Assembly (NCBI GenBank): GCA_021432635.1
Contig: MU270040.1
Location: forward strand, 70,323-134,322
Direction: 5' to 3'
Source of the DNA: Thozetella sp. PMI_491
Lineage: Eukaryota > Ascomycota > Sordariomycetes > Chaetosphaeriales > Chaetosphaeriaceae
DNA length: 64,000 nucleotides
Part shown: one piece after another, positions 5,639-64,000 of the stretch
Layout: each line of letters begins with the position of its first letter
How positions within the stretch are numbered: the stretch's first letter is position 1
Program-made: the position numbers and the translations under genes
Notes under the pieces: model-generated
What the model was told of the DNA's origin: nothing
Seen by the model: only the letters and a program-made list of their open reading frames with translations
Databases searched by the model: none

Positions 5639-7298
5639 CTATGGGAAGGGTGGCTGGATCGCGATCTCATGCCCATCCTCTCCCTCCTCCGCCACCGCCG
5701 CCTGCGGTCTTTGCTGCGTGTCAGCTGAGGGCGTTCTGATGGCTCGGGAATAGGACCGCGATGGCACACGGAGATATACTCACATCGGGAGGGGGGTTGG
5801 AGTAGCCTTCGCCACCACCCACGCCCGGGTCACCATATTGGTCGTAAGAAAACTGCTCGCTCTCGCCCTCGTTTATGGCGTAGCCGTGGCTCGGCCAGGC
5901 CGTGTTGTCATTGTAGAAGCCTACCGGCGTGGTGGTGGCCGGGTAATAGCCGTAGCTCGAGGCCGAGGTGGTGGTCGGCACGGCGTCGGCGTCCTGGCCG
6001 TAGGCACGGAATTGGCCGTACGACTGGCTCGTCCTCGACGGCGACAGCGAGCTGGGACTGTGGTCGTAGGCAAAGCTGGAGCCATAACCTACATCCGAGG
6101 TCGGGATGTCTGAGTCGTAGGCGAAACTCGTATTGTCGCTGCCCACCGACGTGGGCGTCGTCACCGAAGCATTAGGGTAGACCTGGCCTTTGTCCGATTG
6201 TGACTCCAGTTGCGCCGCTATTGATGTGTATCTGTTCGCAATGGCATCCTACAGTTAGGCATCCATTCACTCTGACTCAGGCACGAGCTCCACCTCCCCA
6301 GTTGGGAAGAGCGGGGGGGGCTTGTAGGGACGGAAAGGTATAGGAAATAGGAAACCGCCTCGTGACTCACCTATTGCTAAGACTTAGAGGCGAACGGTTT
6401 TGAAAAAAATGCTTGGAGATGGACGCCCAGTTGCGCCCGTACGTCTCGACCGCCGACTTGAGTTGTTCGTCCTGGAGAGAATCGCGAGCGGTTAGCAACG
6501 AGACCCACATAAGGGGCTAGTCAACAATTCAAGCGCAAGGATTTTTTTTGGATCTTTTTTTTTGGGCAAAATGGAGCCAGCAAGTCCCTCGCTTGGTTGC
6601 ACTTACGTCGGCGGCGGTCCACTCTGCTGTCGAGAGCTCCGGGTTGAGGGCATTCTGCCACCTCTTTTGGCATTCTAGACGAGAAGAAGGTCAGCCTCAG
6701 TCCTGGCGTTGAGCTGGCCACCACGGGCCACGGGGGGGAACTGACGGTCCGGGCTCCGGGTCTGCACCATCTCGGCCACGGCGATCCACCTGCGTTTCGT
6801 TATTAGCAAATCTGCGTTACGGGGCAGCGGGGTCCGGCCCGTCTCATACCTGGTGCCGTGCTGCGCTACGGCCTGTCGGAGCCGTGCGTTCTCCTCTTCG
6901 TCCCAGGACCCCTTCCGCCACTGCTCGCTGATCTTGGTCCACCGCTTCCTGCAGTCCTTGTTGTTTCTTCCGGGCAGTCGCCTGGCCACCTCGACCCAGT
7001 TGACTGTGGTCTCTGGGCAAGAGGGTGTGCCCCATCAGCAATGCGACCTTCGGGGAGAGTCTGTTCAGGAGACAAGAGAGAGGGAACGAGAGAAAGAGAG
7101 AAAGAGAAATATAGAGAAAGAGAGATATAGAGAAAGAGAGAGATAGAGATAGAGAAAGAGGGGAGAGTGGGGGAGGAGAGGAAAGGAAGATGGAGTCGAA
7201 GGAGGTAGATGGATCGACCAAGGTCAAGTACCTTTCTCGAAACAGGCGACGAGCCTGCGCAGCTCGCGGTCCTCGCCCTCGGTCCACTTGTTGGGCAT
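5639..7298 (-). CDS. Three-repeat Myb DNA-binding protein
   Basis: Predicted nuclear DNA-binding protein of 321 aa. Seven exons fit in frame: 7232-7298, 6850-7012, 6746-6789, 6607-6674, 6371-6471, 5784-6231 and 5639-5713. Three tandem Myb/SANT repeats fill the N-terminal half: the first runs from MPNKWTEGED to CRKRW, the second contains GSWDEEENARLRQAV and CQKRWQNAL, the third contains EWTAADDEQLKSAV, NWASISKHFF and SNRYTSI. The regularly spaced tryptophans and the RxxxxCxxRW ends of helix 3 are clear. The C-terminal half is low complexity (Ser, Tyr, Gly, Thr, Asp), as in many activation regions. The last exon uses donor GTGAGT at 5778-5783 and branch GCTGAC before 5714, giving an acidic tail that ends at TAG; reading through instead gives a slightly different tail. 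Intron 1 carries a long purine tract. Similar in outline to fungal BAS1/Myb-like proteins; target genes cannot be inferred. Confidence 0.85.
7074..7196. repeat. GA-rich purine tract inside Myb intron 1
   Basis: On the plus strand this stretch is almost purely A and G, built from repeated AGAGA/GAAAG/ATAGA units (polypyrimidine on the coding strand). It lies entirely inside the roughly 220-bp first intron of the Myb gene, much longer than the other introns in the window. Confidence 0.8.
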
Positions 7299-53608: not shown

Positions 53609-54442
53609 GAGGCTTGACCGACAACCCACGAGTGGACACGTGGGCTCCAAGGCGGGGCGGTCCGCCTGAACCCCGCGGGCCAAGCAAAATAAGAACACAG
53701 TCGTGTCGGCGGCCGGACTTATTGGTTCTAAATTGCGACCGGAAGTGGAAGTAGCTTGTGAAGAGAGCTATCGGCGGATTTGCGTGGAGTTGATGCCCGC
53801 TCGTATGCGAGCGCGAGACTGTTGCCATTCTCCGAAGGACCGTTCTCACGAGGTTCAGGCCAAGGAGAGCAGTCAGTGTGTACCTTTTTGACATTTTTCC
53901 TTTACCGCAGGTCTTTGAAGTCGGTATGACTTCACTTCCGAGATTGCTGCAGGCTGGGAGGGAGTGTTGGGGAGTTTAGGGAATTGTAATCAGCACCAGC
54001 TACGACCCGAGGGACAGAAAAGCTTGCCGGCTAGGGAGCTTCACTTCGCGCCTGTTGTTTTTGCTTTCTACCTTCATTAGGTACTTCATGAGCGGGAAGA
54101 AACGACATATATCACATTTTCACATATCTGAGCTGCTGCTCCAAAAAGCGCTCAAGACGCCCTGTGTGGGCTCCCTTGATGAGGGCGGGTGAATTGTAGC
54201 TGGTCAAATTTTGAATCGGTAATGGCGCTTGAATATCGAGTACAAGTACCCTGTGACATAAGCGGCTGAGCTCTTAGCCTCGTCGTTCGCCAACAAGGCA
54301 CTCAGCCGGGCGAAACCCTCGGTCGCGCAACGCCAGAAGATAAGACGGGCAGACTTTCAGCCTGAGCCACAAAACCAAGCAACACCGTCGCATAGCTGCA
54401 ACTTGCAAAGGAGGCCGATATGAGAACCCAAGATTGACTGCG
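53609..54442. other. Intergenic region
   Basis: Holds the 3' flank of the zinc-finger gene and the promoter of the cytochrome P450. No strong TATA, repeat or extra gene is visible. Confidence 0.5.
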
Positions 54443-56185
54443 ATGAGGACCATCAGCTACGCATCATTAGTGGCATCAGTGGTGGTCGTCTACGTTGTGT
54501 ATCTAGCCACCGTCGCTCTGCATCGGCTTCTATTTCACCCGTTGGCCAAGTTTCCTGGACCCAGGCTCGCCGCCGTCACGAGGCTTTACGAAGCGTATTA
54601 CGATCTCGCCTTGGGCGGTAGGTACACGCACAAGATCGCTGAGCTCCATGAGCAATATGGTTCGTCCTCATGATTGTTCTCCCCGCTACGGGTGGAATAA
54701 TCCTCCCGCTTGGGTTAGATGCATAGCTTACTAGTGTTAGGACCCATCATCCGCATTAGTCCTTATGAGCTGCACATACATGATTCCCACTATTATGACA
54801 AGTTTTACCGGGACGATTCGCGTAGCAATAAGTATGCATGGACCTATGATGCCGTCGGAGCCAAGGATGTAGCCATCTCCACAGCCGATCACGAGGCACA
54901 CAGAAGACGGCGAGCTCCATTCACTCCTTTCTTCTCGAAGCCAGCAGTGAGTTCGCGCGTCGACTTTATCCAGGCCACTGTGGACAAATTGGGTGAACGT
55001 ATCGATGGATTTGTCGATTCTGAGGAGGTGCTCAACCTCGGCGCAGCGTATAGCGCCTTGACGAGCGACATCGCCACTGAATTTACGCTAGGTGAGAGCA
55101 ACCATAACCTCGACCAGGACAATTTCAACGAGGATATGGCCGTTATCCTACAGAGCATGGGGACCATTTGGCGCTGGACAAAGCATTTTTGGTTTGTTGG
55201 GCCGCTCGTGAGAGGCATGCCCATGGGCGTGGCCGAGAAGATCGTGGATTCGAAGATGCGGGCATTCCTCTCCTATCTCATGGTAAGTATCGCGTTAACG
55301 CACTGGCAGGAATCGACGGAGCTGATATGGTAATAGGTACTCACTTCTCAGGTCTGCGACCTGATGACAGCGCATGTCTCAGGCCAACGTTTCGTCAGCG
55401 CCCGCCCCAACCTAGTTGATGTGATTCTGTCGTCAAAGCATCTCTTGGACAGCGAGAAGAGCGTCCGGCGCGTTGCCGACGAGATAAGTGCTGTGACTTC
55501 AGCCGGATTCGAGACCACAGCTTTGGCCTTGCGCATGACCTCCTACCACCTATACACCCACCCGTCCGTGCTCGCCCGCCTCCGGGCAGAGCTGAGACAG
55601 CTCACGAACACGCTTCCGCCGGGCGAGAGGCCGACATGGACGCAGCTAAGTCAGCTGCCGTATCTGACAGCCGTGATCATGGAGGGCCTCCGGCTTAGCA
55701 CGGGGCTGGTCACCCGGATGGCGCGTGTGTCCCGCGACGAGATCCGGTATGGCGCATGGAAGATCCCCGCGGGCACGCCAGTCGGCATGACCACCATCCT
55801 CATGCACTATGACGAGAGTATCTTCCACGACGCCAAGAAGTTCGATCCCCAGCGCTTCGTCGACCAAGAGGAGCGTTGGAAGCTGGAGAAGTATTTCGCC
55901 CCCTTTTCTCGTGGCTCACGCATGTGCTTAGGAATGCAGTAAGTGCTCCCCAGGCAGAGTCCTAGGGGGAGTGTTTTCATGATCGTGCTGACTGAGTCGT
56001 TTACCCGTAGTCTTGCGTGGGCCGAGCTGTACCTGACTCTTGCCATGGTTGTGTCGCGATTCGACTTTGAGTTCGTGGATACCGGACCCGAAGATGTGGA
56101 GTTTCATACAGATCAGTTCGTCTTCGGACCGAAGGGCACGAACGGCATCAAGGCGATTGCGAAGCAATGGGAATGGGCTAGCTAA
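54443..56185 (+). CDS. Cytochrome P450 monooxygenase
   Basis: Heme-thiolate monooxygenase, ER-anchored, 506 aa; substrate unknown. Four exons, 54443-54659, 54741-55282, 55352-55938 and 56011-56185, join in phases 1, 0 and 2. An N-terminal hydrophobic anchor ([19 protein letters not shown]) is followed by the proline-rich hinge [26 protein letters not shown], the I-helix [13 protein letters not shown] (AGxxTT type), the ExxR motif EGLRLS, and heme-binding [11 protein letters not shown], whose Cys ligands the heme, are all intact. The last two heme-region residues are split by intron 3 (CA/T gives His after Met). The overall phrasing resembles fungal secondary-metabolism P450s of the trichodiene-oxygenase/benzoate-like type (inference). 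A broken transcription-factor remnant lies 0.5 kb downstream, but no backbone synthase is present, so a cluster is not supported. Confidence 0.93.
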
Positions 56186-56678
56186 GAGTCAAGATATGAG
56201 CGTCAGTGGTCTTAGGGGCGGAGGTTAGAGTTCTTCACCTGGAGCGTATAGTACAAACAAATGATAGTCTAATTCATGTTCTACAGGACTCATACACGTA
56301 CTACTGCCACTTCTTGTACGAGTATCGTTCGTCCGGGGCCGGAAGTAGTCATGTCCTACTCCTTTGTCTCTTTTGTAAGGTGCCCGGCCGCTTGATCAGC
56401 CGCAATCTGAACCTCCCATATCTTCATAACCTTTGTGATGGTAGGTCAAGATTTCACGCGGTTAATCTAGGCGGTATAATGCACGCTTTTATCCAACTCA
56501 GCTGCTTCGAGCTCCGCAGCGATCATAGGTAATATAGCGATCCAGTTCAAAAATATGAGCCCAGGCAGGACGGAGCTCCATCATCAGCCGCGACCTCGCG
56601 GTCTAGGCATCCCAACAGAGGACAGCGTGTACAGGCGCCACCAACTCCGGCCCGCAGAGATTCACCCGGTATCTTGCC
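56186..56678. other. Intergenic region after P450
   Basis: AT-richer than the coding flanks, holding the P450 3' end. A short plus-strand frame from 56555 does not show a zinc cluster or splice into the downstream remnant convincingly. Confidence 0.45.
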
Positions 56679-57840
56679 TTGCCATGCTGCGCGATTCCGT
56701 TTGCTAACTTCTTCACGTCGTCTACTACAGTCACTTTTACCGAGAACTTCGAGAATTCATTACAAAATCTACTACCGACACTGAGCGATGGACGCCACCA
56801 CTATTATACGGATGGCATGGAAGCGACGGATTGGACAGATAGGACCCAGCACATACAACCTGACGCTCCCTTTATTCCATTAGAGGATCTGGATGTTATA
56901 TCTCCTTCGTTAAGCTCCCAGACATTCAGCCGAACTGACGGCGTCGGTGGAGACATGCTCAGCCCAGAAGGACGGATCGCAAACTCGGGGCCCAACAACG
57001 CCAACAGTGCGGTTTACATGGACCCCGCTCTGTCTGATCGCATAACTTCCTTGGCCGTCTCGGGAACTAACCAAGAAGAGGAACTTTGTGGACACCAGGC
57101 CAACGGGCAGTGGCTTCAAAAGCTTGTCGAGATCAATGTCCAACTGTTCAACCACGCGAGCCTGGGCATAAATGGAAGTTCGACTCAGACCACGAGCAAC
57201 CTGACTAGCTATACCATCACCAGAGACGACGCCTCTGCATCTTCGGCTCCGCAAGAATCTGTCAGTAATAACGGCTTTGATAAGATGATTATGCTATCCT
57301 TGCACTTTATCCAGGCACTCCGTAACCTTCACGGCATCAGCGGCCACAACCTATCGATAAAACACACCATTCCGCCACTACCAAATCTCGACCCGGGCTC
57401 CACGCTAATCATATATTCATGCTACATTCGCGTGTTCGAACCTTTTACGAACAAGCTAGTCGCCCTTCAGGAGTCCTTCAACGCTGTCACGACTACTTCT
57501 GGTACGTGGGGTGGCAGCAGTTCCAATTCGACTGCACTTCGGGCATCTCTACAATAAACCTCCCCACTTTGATCACCCACTCCTGCAAGCTGGAAGAATA
57601 CTCAGTCCTTCACTTTCGCCTGACGCTAAAGTTTCTAGAGGAGATTCTGGATGTTATGAATACACTCTTGGCACCAATCATAATGGTAGCAAGCGTCGGG
57701 CAGCGGCAGGAGGAAGTACACATTACGCCGTGGAGTGTGCAGAACCTAACCCCCGACGTGTCATAGCAGGCGTTACGCACACGGGTGGAAAAGATATACT
57801 AGATGATCAAGGACATGAGGCAGGAGTTAAAAGCTAAATG
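56679..57840 (+). pseudogene. Remnant of a Zn2Cys6-type transcription factor
   Basis: A 292-codon frame (56679-57557) resembles the C-terminal regulatory half of fungal Zn2Cys6 regulators: an acidic/Ser/Thr-rich segment (DAPFIPLEDLDVISPS), then LVEINVQLFNHASLG, MIMLSLHFIQALRNLHG and PGSTLIIYSCYIRVFEPF. Just past that motif the expected continuation is in another frame: VGWQQFQFDCTSGIS and LEEILDVMNTLLAP lie in the +1-shifted frame ending at 57766. No splice pair of reasonable size bridges the two, so a frameshift near 57490-57510 is the simplest reading. No CxxCxxxxxKxxC zinc cluster is found upstream. The gene therefore lacks its DNA-binding domain and is probably dead. A sequencing error or an unrecognised 5' exon are alternatives. 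Confidence 0.5.
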
Positions 57841-58124
57841 ACATACTATCATATAAGCAATCTTAGAATAGAACTCCTCAAGGAAAGGGAAGGAATAATA
57901 ACACAGATTGAAAGGAAATGATTTAGGAAATAAAAGAATACTATATCATACTGCTTCTCATTATTTGTCCTTGGGTTGCTATTTTGCTGTTATCCGTGAA
58001 AACTCTCAGCTACCGGACAAGAAGGCACAACATGCGTTAAAAAAGCCTGGTACTCTCACGTTCAACCCTGTCAGGTATTCCATCCAGATAATCGCTTTTG
58101 ATACCAATATAACCTTCCCATTCA
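57841..58124. other. AT-rich spacer
   Basis: AT-rich sequence between the transcription-factor remnant and the membrane-protein gene. No coding features; a 75-codon open frame at 57908 has no motif. Confidence 0.4.
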
Positions 58125-58664
58125 TTAAACACTGAGCATGTTGTTCCCGTTGGGGTCCCTCCAAGTGCGATCGTACTTTCCGCCCGGGTACGCTGGAGGG
58201 GGCTTCTCTGGGAAGTTGCTATTCGCGGCGGCATTCTCAGCGTCGAAATTGTAAGCGTTGTGGACGCCATGCATGTTGCCAGCAACGGCAGGGGTATTGG
58301 CACCGTTGCCCCAATACCTCCTGTTATCCCAGTGCTGTCCCCCACCCCAGTGCTGCCTATTGAATCCATGAATCTCCTGTTCTTGCCATGGTTCTGGTGT
58401 AGGTTCGGTGGCCGACTGGCTGCTCGGGGCTGCCTTCCTTCGACGGCGACAGCAAAGGAAGGCGTAGATAGCAATGATAACAAGAAACAGGAAGCCAATG
58501 ATGATACCCGCAATAGGGGCTTCCATGTGGTCTCCGTCGTCCCTGGCCAGGGAATACCGCCAGCTGGAATACACAATGATGGCCGCGATAGCCGTAATGA
58601 ATATCACGAATCCATAATTCTTGCCCCTGGCAGTTCGAAAGCCGGGTGCAAAGCCAGCATTCAT
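58125..58664 (-). CDS. Small two-span membrane protein with a PPxY-like tail
   Basis: Predicted integral membrane protein of 179 aa, single coding exon. Two hydrophobic segments, NYGFVIFITAIAAIIVYSSW (about 16-35) and IAGIIIGFLFLVIIAIYAFL (about 51-70), are followed by CCRRRRK and a polar Gln/Trp/Asn/Gly-rich tail containing HWGGGQHWDNRRYWG and ending EKPPPAYPGGKYDR...NNMLSV. The PPAY sequence fits a PPxY motif bound by Rsp5-type ubiquitin ligases, and the plan (membrane span, basic stop-transfer, PY-bearing tail) recalls RCR (Congo red resistance) proteins, though those have one span. Family assignment is tentative. Upstream, ATG 58811 followed by a GTAGTC donor and a CTAATATTCAAG acceptor could form a 5' UTR intron; the frame used here starts at 58664. 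Confidence 0.65.
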   Translation of the reverse strand: MNAGFAPGFRTARGKNYGFVIFITAIAAIIVYSSWRYSLARDDGDHMEAPIAGIIIGFLFLVIIAIYAFLCCRRRRKAAPSSQSATEPTPEPWQEQEIHGFNRQHWGGGQHWDNRRYWGNGANTPAVAGNMHGVHNAYNFDAENAAANSNFPEKPPPAYPGGKYDRTWRDPNGNNMLSV

Positions 58665-61074
58665 TTCGGAGGTCGCAAAATATTGGAATCAGGATGCCAC
58701 GGGGGCCGGCTTGAATATTAGCAGAGTTAAATTCTCCAGGGGCGAATGTGAGGCAATTAAGAGATTGAAAGTGTGTAGATATGGAAGATGGACTACCTTA
58801 GATGCGGCCATTTCCTCATAGCTTACGTATGTCATGTAACCATTGGATGCTGCTTAATGAGCCACGGTCATGAGCGAGGATAGTGGATCGACGAGTGGGC
58901 AGCTCTTCGATTGGGCGTGGCGCCACAATGCCGTCATTGAGATCGCGGGCCGTACGCTGAGTCGCTCAAACCTTGTTCGACCAACATGAATATAATAGCG
59001 CGCAGCTCAATGGCGAGTAGCGCCACTGCCATTCTTTGTACGGTTCTTTGGTCGACACCCCTTTTTTACTCTAAGGATATACGTACTCCATGATCGGCAG
59101 GTCGCCCGCCCAATTGTGCCTTTCATTGTGGGACTATGCTAACTAGTCGATATAGAAAATAGAATACATCCCGCGTTGGTTTGTTAGTGTGGGAATTGAA
59201 AGGCAACTGTCTTCACATTGATATTCTCGCCCACAAGAGAATCTAGAAACGGAGGCTTGCGGGGCCAGCAACAAGCTAAAATGGCCAAAGAACCTACAGG
59301 GCTGTTTACTAGCTTTCGGCCAGCTTCTATGTAATACCATACGAGGGGTTAGATTTTATGGTGTATTTAAGAAAAACACCTGATCCTGGCTACGCTCGGT
59401 TTGGTCTAGGTAGCATCCAAGTCCGCAGTGGCCCGGCTGGCTGATGATAGCCCTGAGAAGTTACCATGAGATATATCGCAGGCGAAAAGGGCATCCTGAC
59501 TTCTATCTGAGGTTTTTTTATATTCAATTGTCGCGGCTGGAGGACCAGAGAAGCTTGCACTAGGTGATAAATCTACCCAGTTCTCTAGCACCTACAAAGC
59601 ATGCAATATATCGGTGGTATGATCCACTGGCCGCTCTCACAAGCAATCATTGGCATGGAGAGAACTCGAGCTTCAGTGCATCTAACCTTATGGCAGTATG
59701 TTCGCATTAGTTACCTATTAAGGACTGGGCTTCCCCGCATCCGCGACTGCGTTGAATTTGAGCTTGCAACACACCGTTCAAACGACCTAGCTGATTCCCA
59801 GCGACCCAGGAAGCACGGATACCACATGCGGGACTTTCTAAATAGCCTGAAGTTCTCCAGGATGTTCGGTGATGTACATGACCCACCGAGTGAGCAAGGA
59901 TGATTTGGAGAAGGCCCACCGTCATCGTGGGTGGGATGACAACCTGCTCCCCGCAACGTTGAATTGCCAAGTCCTCGCGATGCAACAATTCCTTGATACC
60001 GAACAGCCGGGGATGAGGCAGATTCCAATGCCAAGATATGTTATTCTTCATGAAAAAAGCCTATAGACCGAGGAGGCCAAGCTTTTGTTTCAACCCCTCT
60101 GCTCGATTATCCGTTGAAACTCGACCTCTCGAGACTTGCCTTGGGGTACTCGAAGATACTATTTATGGTCACGATGCGGGTCGATGTATCTCGTTTAAAA
60201 TGAGCAAAGAGTACGACCTACTCTCAGGTACTCAGTTTCTCCAATTTCTGCGGGTGTCCATCAGACCGGAGACCTTCTCCAAACTTTCATTTATCCCTAA
60301 CCTGGCTTATGTTGTACGATATAGACACTGCTCCCAAGGAGCTGGATGGCACTTCTAGCGCCTCATCATACAACCTGGTAATCGTTTAGTTTCTTCAATG
60401 ACTGCTGTGTTACTGAAGACGTGCTCAATTATGCCCAGTTACATCATATCATAGTTGAGGCTGCAATGCAGGGTGTATTCTCACGCGGCCTTTACCATAC
60501 TCGGAGGGAACTTGATAGCCCATCCCGGATGCTTATTGCGCCAAGGCACTGTCTATCTACGCCCTTAATAGCTTCACCTCGCTTGCTATCACGACGTGAC
60601 CACCGTCTGCCACATGCGAGGATGTGTTGCGCGGCTCGGTTGCGCTTCCGCATCTCAGTGGCGGTGACGATGAGAGATATGGGGTTATCTTGTCGCTATA
60701 CCATAGGTAGGCCCGTTAAACCGTTTCCCACCCGCTATCCTTGGCTGTGGTTCGTTTTACCCGTCGGGAGAATTCACGCGCTCCGGGGGGCCAATATAGT
60801 AGTAGTTCGGCTCATATGCTCCGACCCCGCAAAACCCGGCACATGGCCGCGGCTTAACAGTCGATACTATATTGCCCCGGAACGTCAACCGCTTTCTATT
60901 CTCTCCGTCGTAGAATACCCCAACAGCTCCAAATTGGTTCGGGTACCTCCGAATTAACCTCAAACTTCACACTGATAAGTTATCAGCGATAACTATAAGA
61001 GCTATGGCGTTCCTAGAGTCTCTGAGACCCAGAGCCTCAAGCCACCAAAAGCTGAATTCCTGCTAGCCACCAAT
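58665..61074. other. Long AT-richer intergenic tract
   Basis: Contains the promoter of the membrane-protein gene and that of the GH11 xylanase (a TATAAGAG element near 60994-61001, about 75 bp before the ATG). Open frames at 59601-59903 and 60421-60957 have no recognisable features. The tract is AT-richer than the gene-dense centre of the window. Confidence 0.45.
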
Positions 61075-61948
61075 ATGGTCGTTCTATCTGCTCTCATCGC
61101 GGTCCTGATCGCAGGTGCTGGCGTTTCCGCCGCTCCGCAGCCTCACGGGCCTGCCAACCAGCTTCCACAGCTCGGAGACCTCATCCATCGTAGCCCTACT
61201 CCGACCGAGATGGCCGCCTCTGTTCCCACAGGTACCGGCACCGACAATGGCTTCTTCTACTCCTTTTGGTACGATGGTCAGGGGCAGGTTACCTACAACA
61301 ATGGGCCTGGCGGTAGCTATGACCTGAAGTGGACCAACGTGGGCAACGTCGTCGCTGGCAAAGGCTGGAACCCCGGTGGCCCCAAGACCGTCGTCTACAA
61401 CGGCACCTGGAACAATGGCGCTGTCAACAGTTACCTTTCTCTCTATGGATGGACAAGGTCGCCATTGGTAGAATACTATATCGGTTCGTATTTCATAATC
61501 ATAACTACCCCCTTCCGGCTCCATGGTTTAAACCCGGGTGGGCAGTCACAACCTAGCGGCACCTGAATTATGCTCTTCAAGCACGTATCAACCCGATCAA
61601 AGTGATTGCTAACTATATGTGCGCGTAGTTGAGTCGTACGGCTCATACAACCCGTCCTCGGGCGCTAGCAAGAAGGGCACGATAACAGTGGATGGTGCTT
61701 CCTATGACATCTACCAGACGCGACGCACCAACCAGCCGTCGATTGATGGCACTGCAAGTTTCGACCAGTACTGGTCCGTACGCCAGAACAAGCGTGTCGG
61801 AGGTACTGTCACTGTTGGTGCTCACTTCGATGCTTGGGGTAAGGCTGGCATGAATATGAACGGAAAGCATAACTATATGATCATGGCCACGGAGGGCTAC
61901 CACAGCAGCGGGAGCGCTTCGATTACTATTGGGGAGAAGACATCTTGA
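61075..61948 (+). CDS. GH11 endo-1,4-beta-xylanase
   Basis: Secreted xylanase (EC 3.2.1.8), 242 aa. Two exons, 61075-61483 and 61629-61948, meet at the standard GH11 site between PLVEYYI and VESYG (phase 1). A signal peptide ([21 protein letters not shown]) and a short propeptide precede the jelly-roll core, which starts near [16 protein letters not shown]. The nucleophile is Glu133 (PLVEYY) and the acid/base Glu225 ([10 protein letters not shown]). The residue preceding the acid/base region and the [12 protein letters not shown] strand are typical. The finger ([28 protein letters not shown]) and thumb-type [21 protein letters not shown] segments are intact. No carbohydrate-binding module. 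The 145-bp intron is longer than most in the window. Divides its right flank with a minus-strand secreted-protein gene, whose stop is 34 bp away. Confidence 0.96.
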
Positions 61949-61981
61949 GAAGAAATTGTCTGCGGCATGGGCCGCCACCTA

Positions 61982-62656
61982 CTATGTAGATAGATGATCG
62001 GAATCTAGTTCAACCTCACCGCCGGGCATGTCGGGGGGGATCATAACCGGCAGCTTGCCCTCGTCCATTCTCTTCCCTGCCCCTTCTCCCACATCCCAGA
62101 TGTCCGTCTCGTTAACGCGTAGGTCATAATTCCAGTCCTTAGATAGAATAGGAACATTGTCGCACATTCTTGATGTACTCCAGCCGTAGTACCCGGGCCT
62201 ACCTTCCGAGCCCACCCAGACGTCAAAGCCGACGGTCTTCTCCCAATCCTTAATGAAGAGATATCCCGTCTTGGAGCCGCCGGTCGCCTTCTGCAGATGG
62301 TACCAGAGTAGTTGAAACTCCCGTAGAGCGCAATTATTGTAGGAGGTGTACTCGCAGACGTAGGCGACGGCCCGTTCGTTGACCACGCACCGGATCTGGT
62401 TTTGGAACCGGTTATCTCTCTCATGGCAAGCGTTTCTCGCTAGGCATACCATAGCCCTGTACAGGTCTTGGTCGTCCACGTTGTGGAAAGTGGGAACATT
62501 TAGGGTCATTGGCAGTTCCGCCGGTGCGCGTATATCCAGGCTTTGAGAATGCGTTTCATTACCCAAGATCGTGCTGAGATTGAGGCCCTGCTCGGCAAGA
62601 GGACTTGCTAGGCCTGCAGCCAAGAGGAATGAAATCCCAAAGACGTGGCGTAGCAT
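61982..62656 (-). CDS. Secreted protein with six cysteines, unknown function
   Basis: Predicted 224-aa secreted protein, single exon. The signal peptide MLRHVFGISFLLAAGLASPLA starts at the ATG at 62656; the frame is open further upstream (62761), but those residues are less signal-like. A propeptide-like stretch (QSLDIRAPAEL) follows, then a region with six cysteines: MVCLARNACHERDNRF, IRCVVNERAVAYVCEY, YNNCALREFQLLWYHLQ and RMCDNVPIL. The pattern suggests three disulfides. The middle is rich in Trp, Tyr and Asp (KDWEKTVGFDVWVGSEGRPGYYGW), the end is acidic. I do not recognise the family. It could be an effector-like or host-interaction protein; evidence is only its size, secretion and cysteines. 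It lies between the GH11 gene (34 bp between stops, convergent) and the repeat-peptide precursor (same strand, 668 bp). Confidence 0.75.
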   Translation of the reverse strand: MLRHVFGISFLLAAGLASPLAEQGLNLSTILGNETHSQSLDIRAPAELPMTLNVPTFHNVDDQDLYRAMVCLARNACHERDNRFQNQIRCVVNERAVAYVCEYTSYNNCALREFQLLWYHLQKATGGSKTGYLFIKDWEKTVGFDVWVGSEGRPGYYGWSTSRMCDNVPILSKDWNYDLRVNETDIWDVGEGAGKRMDEGKLPVMIPPDMPGGEVELDSDHLST

Positions 62657-63324
62657 TCTGGAGATGGTTTGGTTTGTATAAACAAACCGTCGGTTCTCTA
62701 GATAGGGGTTGGAGGACAGCGTTACAGGAAGATGGTAACAAAAAACTGTAGGTAACTTCAAGTCCGATGTCGTTTATAGTTTCCTTTATACTCGCCCTCT
62801 GGGTGCTAATCTGAGATAGCTCTCTACTGTCGAACCATATGAGCTTCAAGTGGGGTGTGTTCCATAGAGCCCAAATGACCAGCGAAGCTCCCCAACCATG
62901 GGTCATGGGAAAGCATCGCGAAGACAGGGTTTGGGGCATCCAAGTGCCACAATTCACTTTCCAAACGAACTGGGAATGTTTTCATCATATATGCATCAAT
63001 TCAACTGCCATCCTAATTTGCTATAAAAAATGAGCAGCAGTATTCAATTGTGCGAGGGCGATAGGTATCTTCACCCGCAGTATCCGCAGATGAGCGGCAC
63101 TGCGATCGGAGATGACCTCAATCTAGCTACTTGGACTTGGACGGTTCTAGAATGGCTTTGGCCGCTGAACCCTAGCTTCTTCCGTGGGTCCGACTTTAAC
63201 TTAAAGTGTATTTACTAGGGCAATGCATTATTCCTGGCATAGCGCCATACCAAGGCCCACCACAACTGCTTAAGTCGCGGCCTAGATGGCGCGACCTCGC
63301 AGTTCTCTACTCTTCAATAGATAT
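62657..63324. other. Intergenic region before the repeat precursor
   Basis: The 5' flank of the six-cysteine secreted gene and the 3' flank of the repeat precursor. A 62-codon plus-strand frame (63030-63218) has no recognisable feature. No repeat units extend into this region. Confidence 0.45.
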
Positions 63325-63660
63325 CTATAGAATCGCGTAGGCTGTGTCGGCCTTGCACAGAGGCCCCTGGCAGGGTTCTGGGGTGCGCTCCTTAAGAATT
63401 GCGTAAGCTGTGTCGGCCTTGCACAGAACACCTTGGCATGGCGCTGGCTCAGGGGTACGGTCCTTGAGGATAGCGTAGGCCGTGTCGGCCTTGCAAAGGG
63501 AGCCCTGGCATGGCTCTGGTTCCGGAGCACGCTCTTTTAGAATAGCGTAGGCAGTATCAGCCTTGCACAGAGAACCCTGGCAGGGCTCTGGGGTGCGCTC
63601 CTTGAGAATGGCGTAAGCCGTGTCGGCCTTGCAAAGGGATCCTTGGCAAGGCTCAGGGTT
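63325..63660 (-). repeat. Five 57-72-bp tandem coding repeats
   Basis: Tandem units of 66, 66, 72, 72 and 57 bp on the minus strand; the unit length changes by exactly 6 bp (one X-Pro dipeptide) in units 3 and 4. Units differ mainly at third codon positions in the AYAIL/ADTA block, so they are not a very recent amplification. Confidence 0.9.
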
Positions 63661-63756
63661 GCGCTCCTCAAGATTGGCGGGCGCGGCACCGGAAATAACA
63701 GGAGCGGCGACGGCGCCGAGCGCGAGGACGCTCGCGATGGCAAGAGAGAAACGCAT
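63325..63756 (-). CDS. Secreted precursor with five tandem peptide repeats
   Basis: Predicted 143-aa secreted precursor with an uninterrupted coding exon. A signal peptide (MRFSLAIASVLALGAVAA) and short leader end at LEER (residues 29-32). Five tandem units follow at 33-54, 55-76, 77-100, 101-124 and 125-143. Each has the core CQGSLCKADTAYAIL (unit 4: CQGVLCK; unit 5: CQGPLCK), preceded by X-Pro dipeptides and followed by KER or KDR; the last unit ends at the stop with no linker. This is the layout of precursors cut after basic residues to free several copies of a peptide, as in alpha-factor-type pheromones and Kex2-processed fungal RiPPs. The linker is not the classic KR. The paired Cys could form a disulfide ring. 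The core differs from alpha-pheromone (W-C...C-W) and ustiloxin-type cores I know. A 5' UTR intron (63766-63819) and TATA box support real expression. Confidence 0.85.
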   Translation of the reverse strand: MRFSLAIASVLALGAVAAPVISGAAPANLEERNPEPCQGSLCKADTAYAILKERTPEPCQGSLCKADTAYAILKERAPEPEPCQGSLCKADTAYAILKDRTPEPAPCQGVLCKADTAYAILKERTPEPCQGPLCKADTAYAIL

Positions 63757-63765
63757 ATCTGGGCA

Positions 63766-63819
63766 CTAGGCTCGATTAGCGCGCGTGCTGAAGCTACTGC
63801 AGAGGGCTGCTTCACTTAC
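63766..63819 (-). other. Likely 5' UTR intron of the repeat precursor
   Basis: On the minus strand, GTAAGTGAAG starts at 63819 and a GCTAATC branch with CCTAG acceptor ends at 63766, ten bases upstream of the ATG. Length 54 bp, typical of this genome. Confidence 0.6.
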
Positions 63820-63898
63820 CAAGAGCGGTTGAGTGTATTCTGTGAGGAGAGTAGTCACTGTATCGACAGCCAAGAGCCAGGGGATGAGCCAAGCGCCC

Positions 63899-63905
63899 CT
63901 TTATA
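63899..63905 (-). promoter_or_regulatory. TATA box of the repeat precursor
   Basis: TATAAAG on the minus strand, about 143 bp upstream of the start at 63756 and upstream of the proposed 5' UTR intron. A good match. Confidence 0.55.
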
Positions 63906-64000
63906 CTACGCGTCCTTCACAGACGATATACTCAGAATGGGAGCCCGCGATGGCTTTCAGTTGATAACACGGGCCACTGTACAAGTCGACTGCCGCGGGT

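Follow-up and report, generated by a model that had tools for sequence, protein, structure and literature searches.

The minus-strand open reading frame at 63325-63756 of the window, a 64,000-nucleotide stretch (C26:70323-134322) of the Thozetella sp. PMI_491 genome, very likely encodes a secreted multi-copy precursor that is cut into peptides. The more specific assignment, namely the precursor of a secreted RiPP of the UstYa type made by the route proposed below, is considered probable. This assignment is favoured because a divergently transcribed UstYa gene lies next to the precursor, because each repeat unit contains Y-A-I and because repeat-peptide ORFs are found at 9 of 18 other UstYa loci of the genome. 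The genome comprises 72.3 Mb in 157 contigs. The reading frame runs uninterrupted from ATG to stop, and its features are the following:

63325..63756 (-): precursor ORF, 143 aa, taken from the ORF list and backed by the relative P0001 and by third-position variation
63703..63756 (-): putative signal peptide MRFSLAIASVLALGAVAA, aa 1-18, assigned by eye; MRFSLA and VLALGA are common to P0001
63661..63702 (-): short pro-segment, aa 19-32, ending in L-E-E-R; P0001 has G-L-H-E-R in the same place
63604..63648 (-): core 1, CQGSLCKADTAYAIL, aa 37-51, after NP-EP
63538..63582 (-): core 2, CQGSLCKADTAYAIL, aa 59-73, after LKER and TP-EP
63466..63510 (-): core 3, CQGSLCKADTAYAIL, aa 83-97, after LKER and AP-EP-EP
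63394..63438 (-): core 4, CQGVLCKADTAYAIL, aa 107-121, after LKDR and TP-EP-AP
63328..63372 (-): core 5, CQGPLCKADTAYAIL, aa 129-143, after LKER and TP-EP, ending at the stop codon
63757..64000 (.): the part within the window of the 1,297-bp intergenic stretch between precursor and UstYa gene

The N-terminus is hydrophobic and signal-like on inspection by eye. It is followed by five near-identical 15-residue cores with the consensus C-Q-G-[SVP]-L-C-K-A-D-T-A-Y-A-I-L, which start at aa 37, 59, 83, 107 and 129. The original prediction of five copies of Cys-x4-Cys plus KADTAYAIL is borne out by the ORF list, the repeat scan and Tandem Repeats Finder, which independently located the array at 63329-63673 with a period of 66 and 5.0 copies. 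Its description of a leader with an Arg-containing end, of KER/KDR spacers and of a last copy closing exactly at the stop also holds, the five boundaries being LEER, LKER, LKER, LKDR and LKER and the stop codon directly following core 5. Three features of the array had gone unremarked: the Y-A-I motif, the x-Pro dipeptides that fill each stretch from Arg to Cys, and a Leu at every P4 position. When the 45-nt units of the five cores are compared, differences appear in 13 columns, of which 11 fall on the third position of a codon (binomial p 2e-4), and first- or second-position changes are confined to codon 4. That nearly all variation among the copies is third-position indicates that the peptide is under selection or constraint. 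A repeat scan with filters over 93.7 kb (the window, L007, L008 and L038) revealed no second repeat ORF. Elsewhere in the window, an imperfect simple repeat of the AGAAAGAG type is present at 7075-7160.

Compared with about 5.8 billion proteins, a set with uncertain coverage of fungi, the precursor had a single match at E <= 0.001, the 86-aa protein P0001 (E 4e-12), and an alignment of the two sequences used as query again found only P0001 at E <= 1. Both leaders share MRFSLA, then VLALGA, APVI and a closing ER. P0001 holds two units, CNTVACRADTAYAIF and CNSIKCAADSAYAIF. Across all seven units (five in the precursor and two in P0001), both Cys, A-D-[TS]-A-Y-A-I and the final [LF] are conserved, while the residues between the two Cys and the residue after the second Cys vary. 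Tyr-x-Ile appears as YAIL in 5/5 precursor units and as YAIF in 2/2 units of P0001, with Y-A-I present in 7/7. No relative of the precursor was found on the viral and prokaryotic contigs searched, and no solved structure matched it at E <= 1. A degenerate DNA search for AD[TS]AYAI with up to two mismatches gave five exact matches, all within the precursor gene, and totals close to the control (132/134 versus 126/122). A von Willebrand type C domain was proposed by Pfam at E 0.067, under the cut-off, and was rejected as a coincidence of Cys spacing. In the literature text searched, the strings CQGSLCKADTAYAIL, KADTAYAI and QIRGQSCW are absent, and the searched text of PMC7099791 and PMC12048977 contains no core of this type. 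A core combining a conserved Cys pair with Tyr-x-Ile was likewise not met in the passages of running text consulted.

None of the dibasic pairs KR, RR, KK or RK occurs in the 143 aa, and all five boundaries have the form L-x-(E/D)-R. At every boundary of the precursor and of P0001, P1 is Arg and P4 is aliphatic (Leu, or Val in one case); the P0001 sites are LHER and VETR, and KR is additionally found after its first core. As described in the available text of PMC8528282, LxxR represents an expanded Kex2 motif with a preference for Leu or aliphatic residues at P4, where Glu is accepted at P2 although Lys is preferred there. The remark in the original prediction that KER/KDR stands where KR is expected was therefore correct in that KR is missing, but KER and KDR are still plausible Kex2 sites by way of LxxR. 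Judged from the sequence, cleavage at these LxxR sites is plausible. The Kex2-type P-domain gave one match.

Each of the five spacers between Arg and Cys consists purely of x-Pro pairs, as listed above, and the accessible portion of PMC6339444 treats repeated XA or XP dipeptides as the Ste13 motif. The Ste13-type x-Pro register of all five spacers was retained in 0 of 200,000 residue shuffles. In P0001, copy 1 has no spacer, HER leading directly to Cys, and the one non-empty spacer, in front of copy 2, is likewise built purely of x-Pro pairs, six in number. Because the x-Pro pairs run up to Cys and HER abuts Cys in copy 1 of P0001, Cys is the predicted N-terminus in 7/7 units.

The lack of any dibasic site in 143 aa, together with the reported preference of Kex2 for Lys over Glu at P2 (PMC8528282, available text), would also fit a repetitive secreted or wall protein that stays uncut and in which LxER is part of the repeat unit instead of a cleavage site. 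This explanation is improbable, since the spacers vary only by x-Pro pairs while the core length is constant, since two further arrays of this genome have LxER-type strings in place of KR at repeat boundaries, and since KR follows the first core of P0001.

The original prediction had proposed looking beyond position 64000 for DUF3328 genes, and this check was positive. An intact UstYa (DUF3328) gene lies just outside the window at C26:135376-136429 (+), corresponding to would-be window positions 65054-66107. The gene model has four exons and encodes 283 aa free of stops, which include a hydrophobic segment and the motifs HELHC...HSRHCIDYLR, and its largest exon matches PF11807 with E 2e-37. 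The two genes are divergently transcribed, with 1,297 bp between the precursor ATG and the UstYa ATG. The best species-named relative of this UstYa is from Nemania serpens (Xylariales; 58% identity), and searches with UstYa found no solved structure at E <= 1 and no relative on viral contigs. Together with the pheromone type on C21, the Nemania relative suggests a sordariomycete affinity, perhaps with the Xylariales. The pairing of precursor and UstYa is known from one genome; P0001 lies on a contig of 4,111 bases, and 0 of the 9 UstYa relatives found came from a contig of this length. Directly after UstYa follows a gene for a CmcJ/NvfI-family oxidoreductase at C26:136883-137847 (+), with 301 aa in the model, whose first part matches NF041278 (E 1e-46). 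NF041278 is represented by 25 rows in the genome, and only the two on C26 are less than 50 kb from UstYa, among the UstYa matches listed.

A different explanation is a linear, disulfide-bonded secreted signal that is processed by Kex2 and Ste13 in the manner of alpha-pheromone and left unmodified, the UstYa gene being an incidental neighbour. The Ste13-type dipeptides and the Cys pair do resemble the alpha-pheromone architecture as depicted in the available part of PMC6339444, and YAI is conserved no better than both Cys and ADTA/ADSA. Moreover, UstYa matches are numerous (at least 149 in the genome, counted exon by exon, with 150 of 203 candidates scored), so that chance neighbours occur. However, with at least 149 matches the chance of a listed UstYa match within 1.8 kb of a random point is about 1% or less, and the UstYa gene here is divergent and at 1.3 kb. 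The invariance of Y-A-I in all seven units and the presence of repeat-peptide ORFs at 9 of the 18 further UstYa loci also speak against it. The unmodified linear signal is consequently held to be an unlikely, though not negligible, alternative to the UstYa-linked RiPP.

The other UstYa loci were sampled at 18 places (L020-L037), mostly those with the strongest matches. The nine that bear repeat-peptide ORFs (L020, L021, L022, L025, L026, L030, L031, L034 and L037) hold 10 arrays, two of them on C84; on visual inspection, this count leaves out out-of-phase frames of the arrays as well as an ORF of Cys-rich octapeptides in L006. Their units differ widely, as exemplified by QLYRDNGGGYSALVPGDVE and AGIDYIKEG, and some of the 10 arrays have a signal-like start by eye. 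Eight of the 10 rely mainly on KR or KK. In the C18 array (L022:6638-6826 +) both boundaries read KLKGR and none between the repeats is dibasic, and the C63 array (L026:3066-3548 -) has VKPR or VKAR at four of five boundaries. On C84, the first array begins with the site GIEER and has VEKR in later copies, and the second contains AIKER once and AIKR in the other copies. The C2 and C28 arrays start with AVQAR and SLGPR, respectively. Altogether, an aliphatic-x-x-R string marks a repeat boundary in 6 of the 10 other arrays, which supports the view that LxxR sites are cut; such strings also occur off-boundary, for example in the first C84 array, in C28 and in the pheromone ORF on C21.

Clusters for ustiloxin and phomopsin contain a tyrosinase and an S41-family peptidase. 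With every candidate scored (84 of 84 and 11 of 11, respectively), the genome has 80 matches to tyrosinase (PF00264) and seven to S41 peptidase (PF03572), none of them on C26. Further out, beyond the oxidoreductase gene, a beta-lactamase-type hydrolase, a DUF3237 protein and an amino-acid permease are encoded, while the neighbours on the window side include a GH11 xylanase and a P450. The Pfam scans covered both strands of L006, the minus strand of L007, the plus strand of the window at 54000-63901 and two minus-strand ORFs of the window. Three additional reading frames were observed. L006:5506-7833 (+) encodes a large protein split over two open stretches, which looks membrane-bound by eye and has no Pfam match. 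L006:8029-8640 (-) is a Cys-rich 204-aa frame with C-terminal octapeptides (CCFSDNEA, CCWSDHAA) and no Pfam match on the scanned strand. The ORF at 61982-62761 (-) of the window contains several Cys and, at an internal Met, a segment resembling a signal peptide; it has no Pfam or NCBIfam match.

The idea that the precursor at 63325-63756 is a diverged alpha sexual pheromone of this fungus is largely refuted by a gene on another contig. C21:364918-365463 (-) (L019) encodes an alpha-pheromone-type precursor with a signal-like start, four copies of WCQIRGQSCW and KR sites, and a STE2 receptor gene is present on C37. The copies in the C21 precursor are set apart by long irregular spacers. What the precursor studied here shares with such a pheromone is architecture (signal-like start, repeats, two Cys per unit and x-Pro dipeptides), whereas its core has no Trp and is C-x4-C rather than C-x6-C, in agreement with the original prediction that the Trp-flanked alpha-pheromone core is lacking. 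The pheromone reading is accordingly very improbable. Of the roles that had been suggested for a released peptide (signal, pheromone-like factor or RiPP), the UstYa-type RiPP gains from the neighbouring UstYa gene, while the pheromone role loses to the C21 gene and the receptor on C37. The statement that the core shows no known RiPP feature needs correcting on one point: Y-A-I corresponds to the Tyr-x-Ile of ustiloxin-type cores as described in the available text of PMC7329392.

For the UstYa-type RiPP, the following route is proposed. The precursor would enter the endoplasmic reticulum, and at each of the five boundaries a Kex2-type protease would cut after the Arg of L-x-(E/D)-R. The x-Pro pairs would then be stripped by a Ste13-type dipeptidyl peptidase that halts at Cys, yielding five Cys-initiated 15-mers of the form C-x4-C-K-A-D-T-A-Y-A-I-L, four of which would carry a C-terminal Lys-Glu/Asp unless trimmed. 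The neighbouring UstYa may oxidise the Tyr and would most likely link this residue with the Ile at the second position after it, the kind of bond known from ustiloxin and phomopsin; the presence of such a Tyr-Ile crosslink in the product is considered not quite an even call. The two Cys of each 15-mer may form a disulfide, and the CmcJ/NvfI-family enzyme may oxidise the peptide further. The calculated [M+H]+ of CQGSLCKADTAYAIL is 1556.745 for the linear form, 1554.729 after a single loss of 2 H and 1552.713 with both disulfide and crosslink; for YAIL by itself the values are 479.286 and 477.271. The released peptide may act as a toxin, a signal or a developmental factor, the last as PMC7329392 reports for Neurospora POI2. 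Conservation of the Cys pair and of ADTA would mean either that the product is longer or that this part serves recognition and is trimmed off afterwards. Since the dipeptide register ends at Cys, the longer, Cys-initiated product is favoured. That all of these features come together in an unrecognised subclass of LxxR-only fungal RiPP precursors, whose product would be a Cys-initiated bicyclic peptide with an N-terminal Cys1-Cys6 disulfide loop, a C-terminal Tyr-Ile cyclophane made by UstYa and alteration by a CmcJ/NvfI-type oxidase, is a more speculative proposal and has only a modest chance of being right.

Among the closest known systems are the dikaritins ustiloxin and phomopsin. According to the available text of PMC7329392, a bond linking the Tyr and the Ile of a YxIx core cyclises both, and that of PMC9233826 describes cyclisation from the N-terminal Tyr to an internal Ile. 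Like these, the studied system has a signal-like start, a multi-copy precursor and a nearby UstYa gene, and its Tyr-x-Ile stands at the C-terminal end of the precursor unit, right before the presumed cut. It differs in the absence of dibasic sites, in the conserved Cys pair and ADTA ahead of the Tyr and in the presence of a CmcJ/NvfI-family gene at the locus: the ustiloxin and phomopsin cores start with Tyr, whereas conservation here extends to ADTA and both Cys. The number of UstYa genes also differs, with one match near the precursor compared with two in the ustiloxin and five in the phomopsin cluster, according to the accessible text of PMC7329392. The asperipin-2a cluster has a single UstYa gene in the same source and is similar in this respect, but its product carries two linkages from two Tyr (PMC9233826, available text), whereas the studied unit has one Tyr, in Y-A-I. 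Ustiloxin-like clusters occur in some Hypoxylaceae, and the extent to which RiPP clusters cover the actual diversity is described as not estimable in the available part of PMC8403587.

Compared with a Sordariomycete-type alpha-pheromone precursor, the repeats with two Cys and the dipeptidyl-peptidase signature are alike, while the WC...CW core and KR are missing. With K2PP effectors the precursor shares a non-dibasic LxxR site of the Kex2 type; as presented in the available text of PMC8528282, that site removes one N-terminal pro-domain, whereas the studied precursor would be cut at every repeat. The KEPs are similar in their secretion-type start, more than three tandem repeats and regularly placed Arg sites. 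In the available texts of the two surveys (Umemura 2020; Le Marquer 2019), KEPs require dibasic sites, either KR, KK, RK or RR separating three or more repeats (PMC7329392) or KR, RR and KK (PMC6339444). With no dibasic pair, the precursor falls outside both of these published definitions, though the biology of the class fits. The same texts indicate that dibasic sites underlie the detection of UstYa-linked fungal precursors, and PMC7329392 reports DUF3328 genes near 22% of 7,878 KEPs. Because a dibasic-free precursor lies beside UstYa, and because the C18 array is wholly and the C63 array at four of five boundaries non-dibasic, such counts may miss clusters of this kind, suggesting a possible blind spot of dibasic-only mining for UstYa-linked peptides, here in a system whose core joins a conserved Cys pair with the Tyr-x-Ile of the dikaritins.
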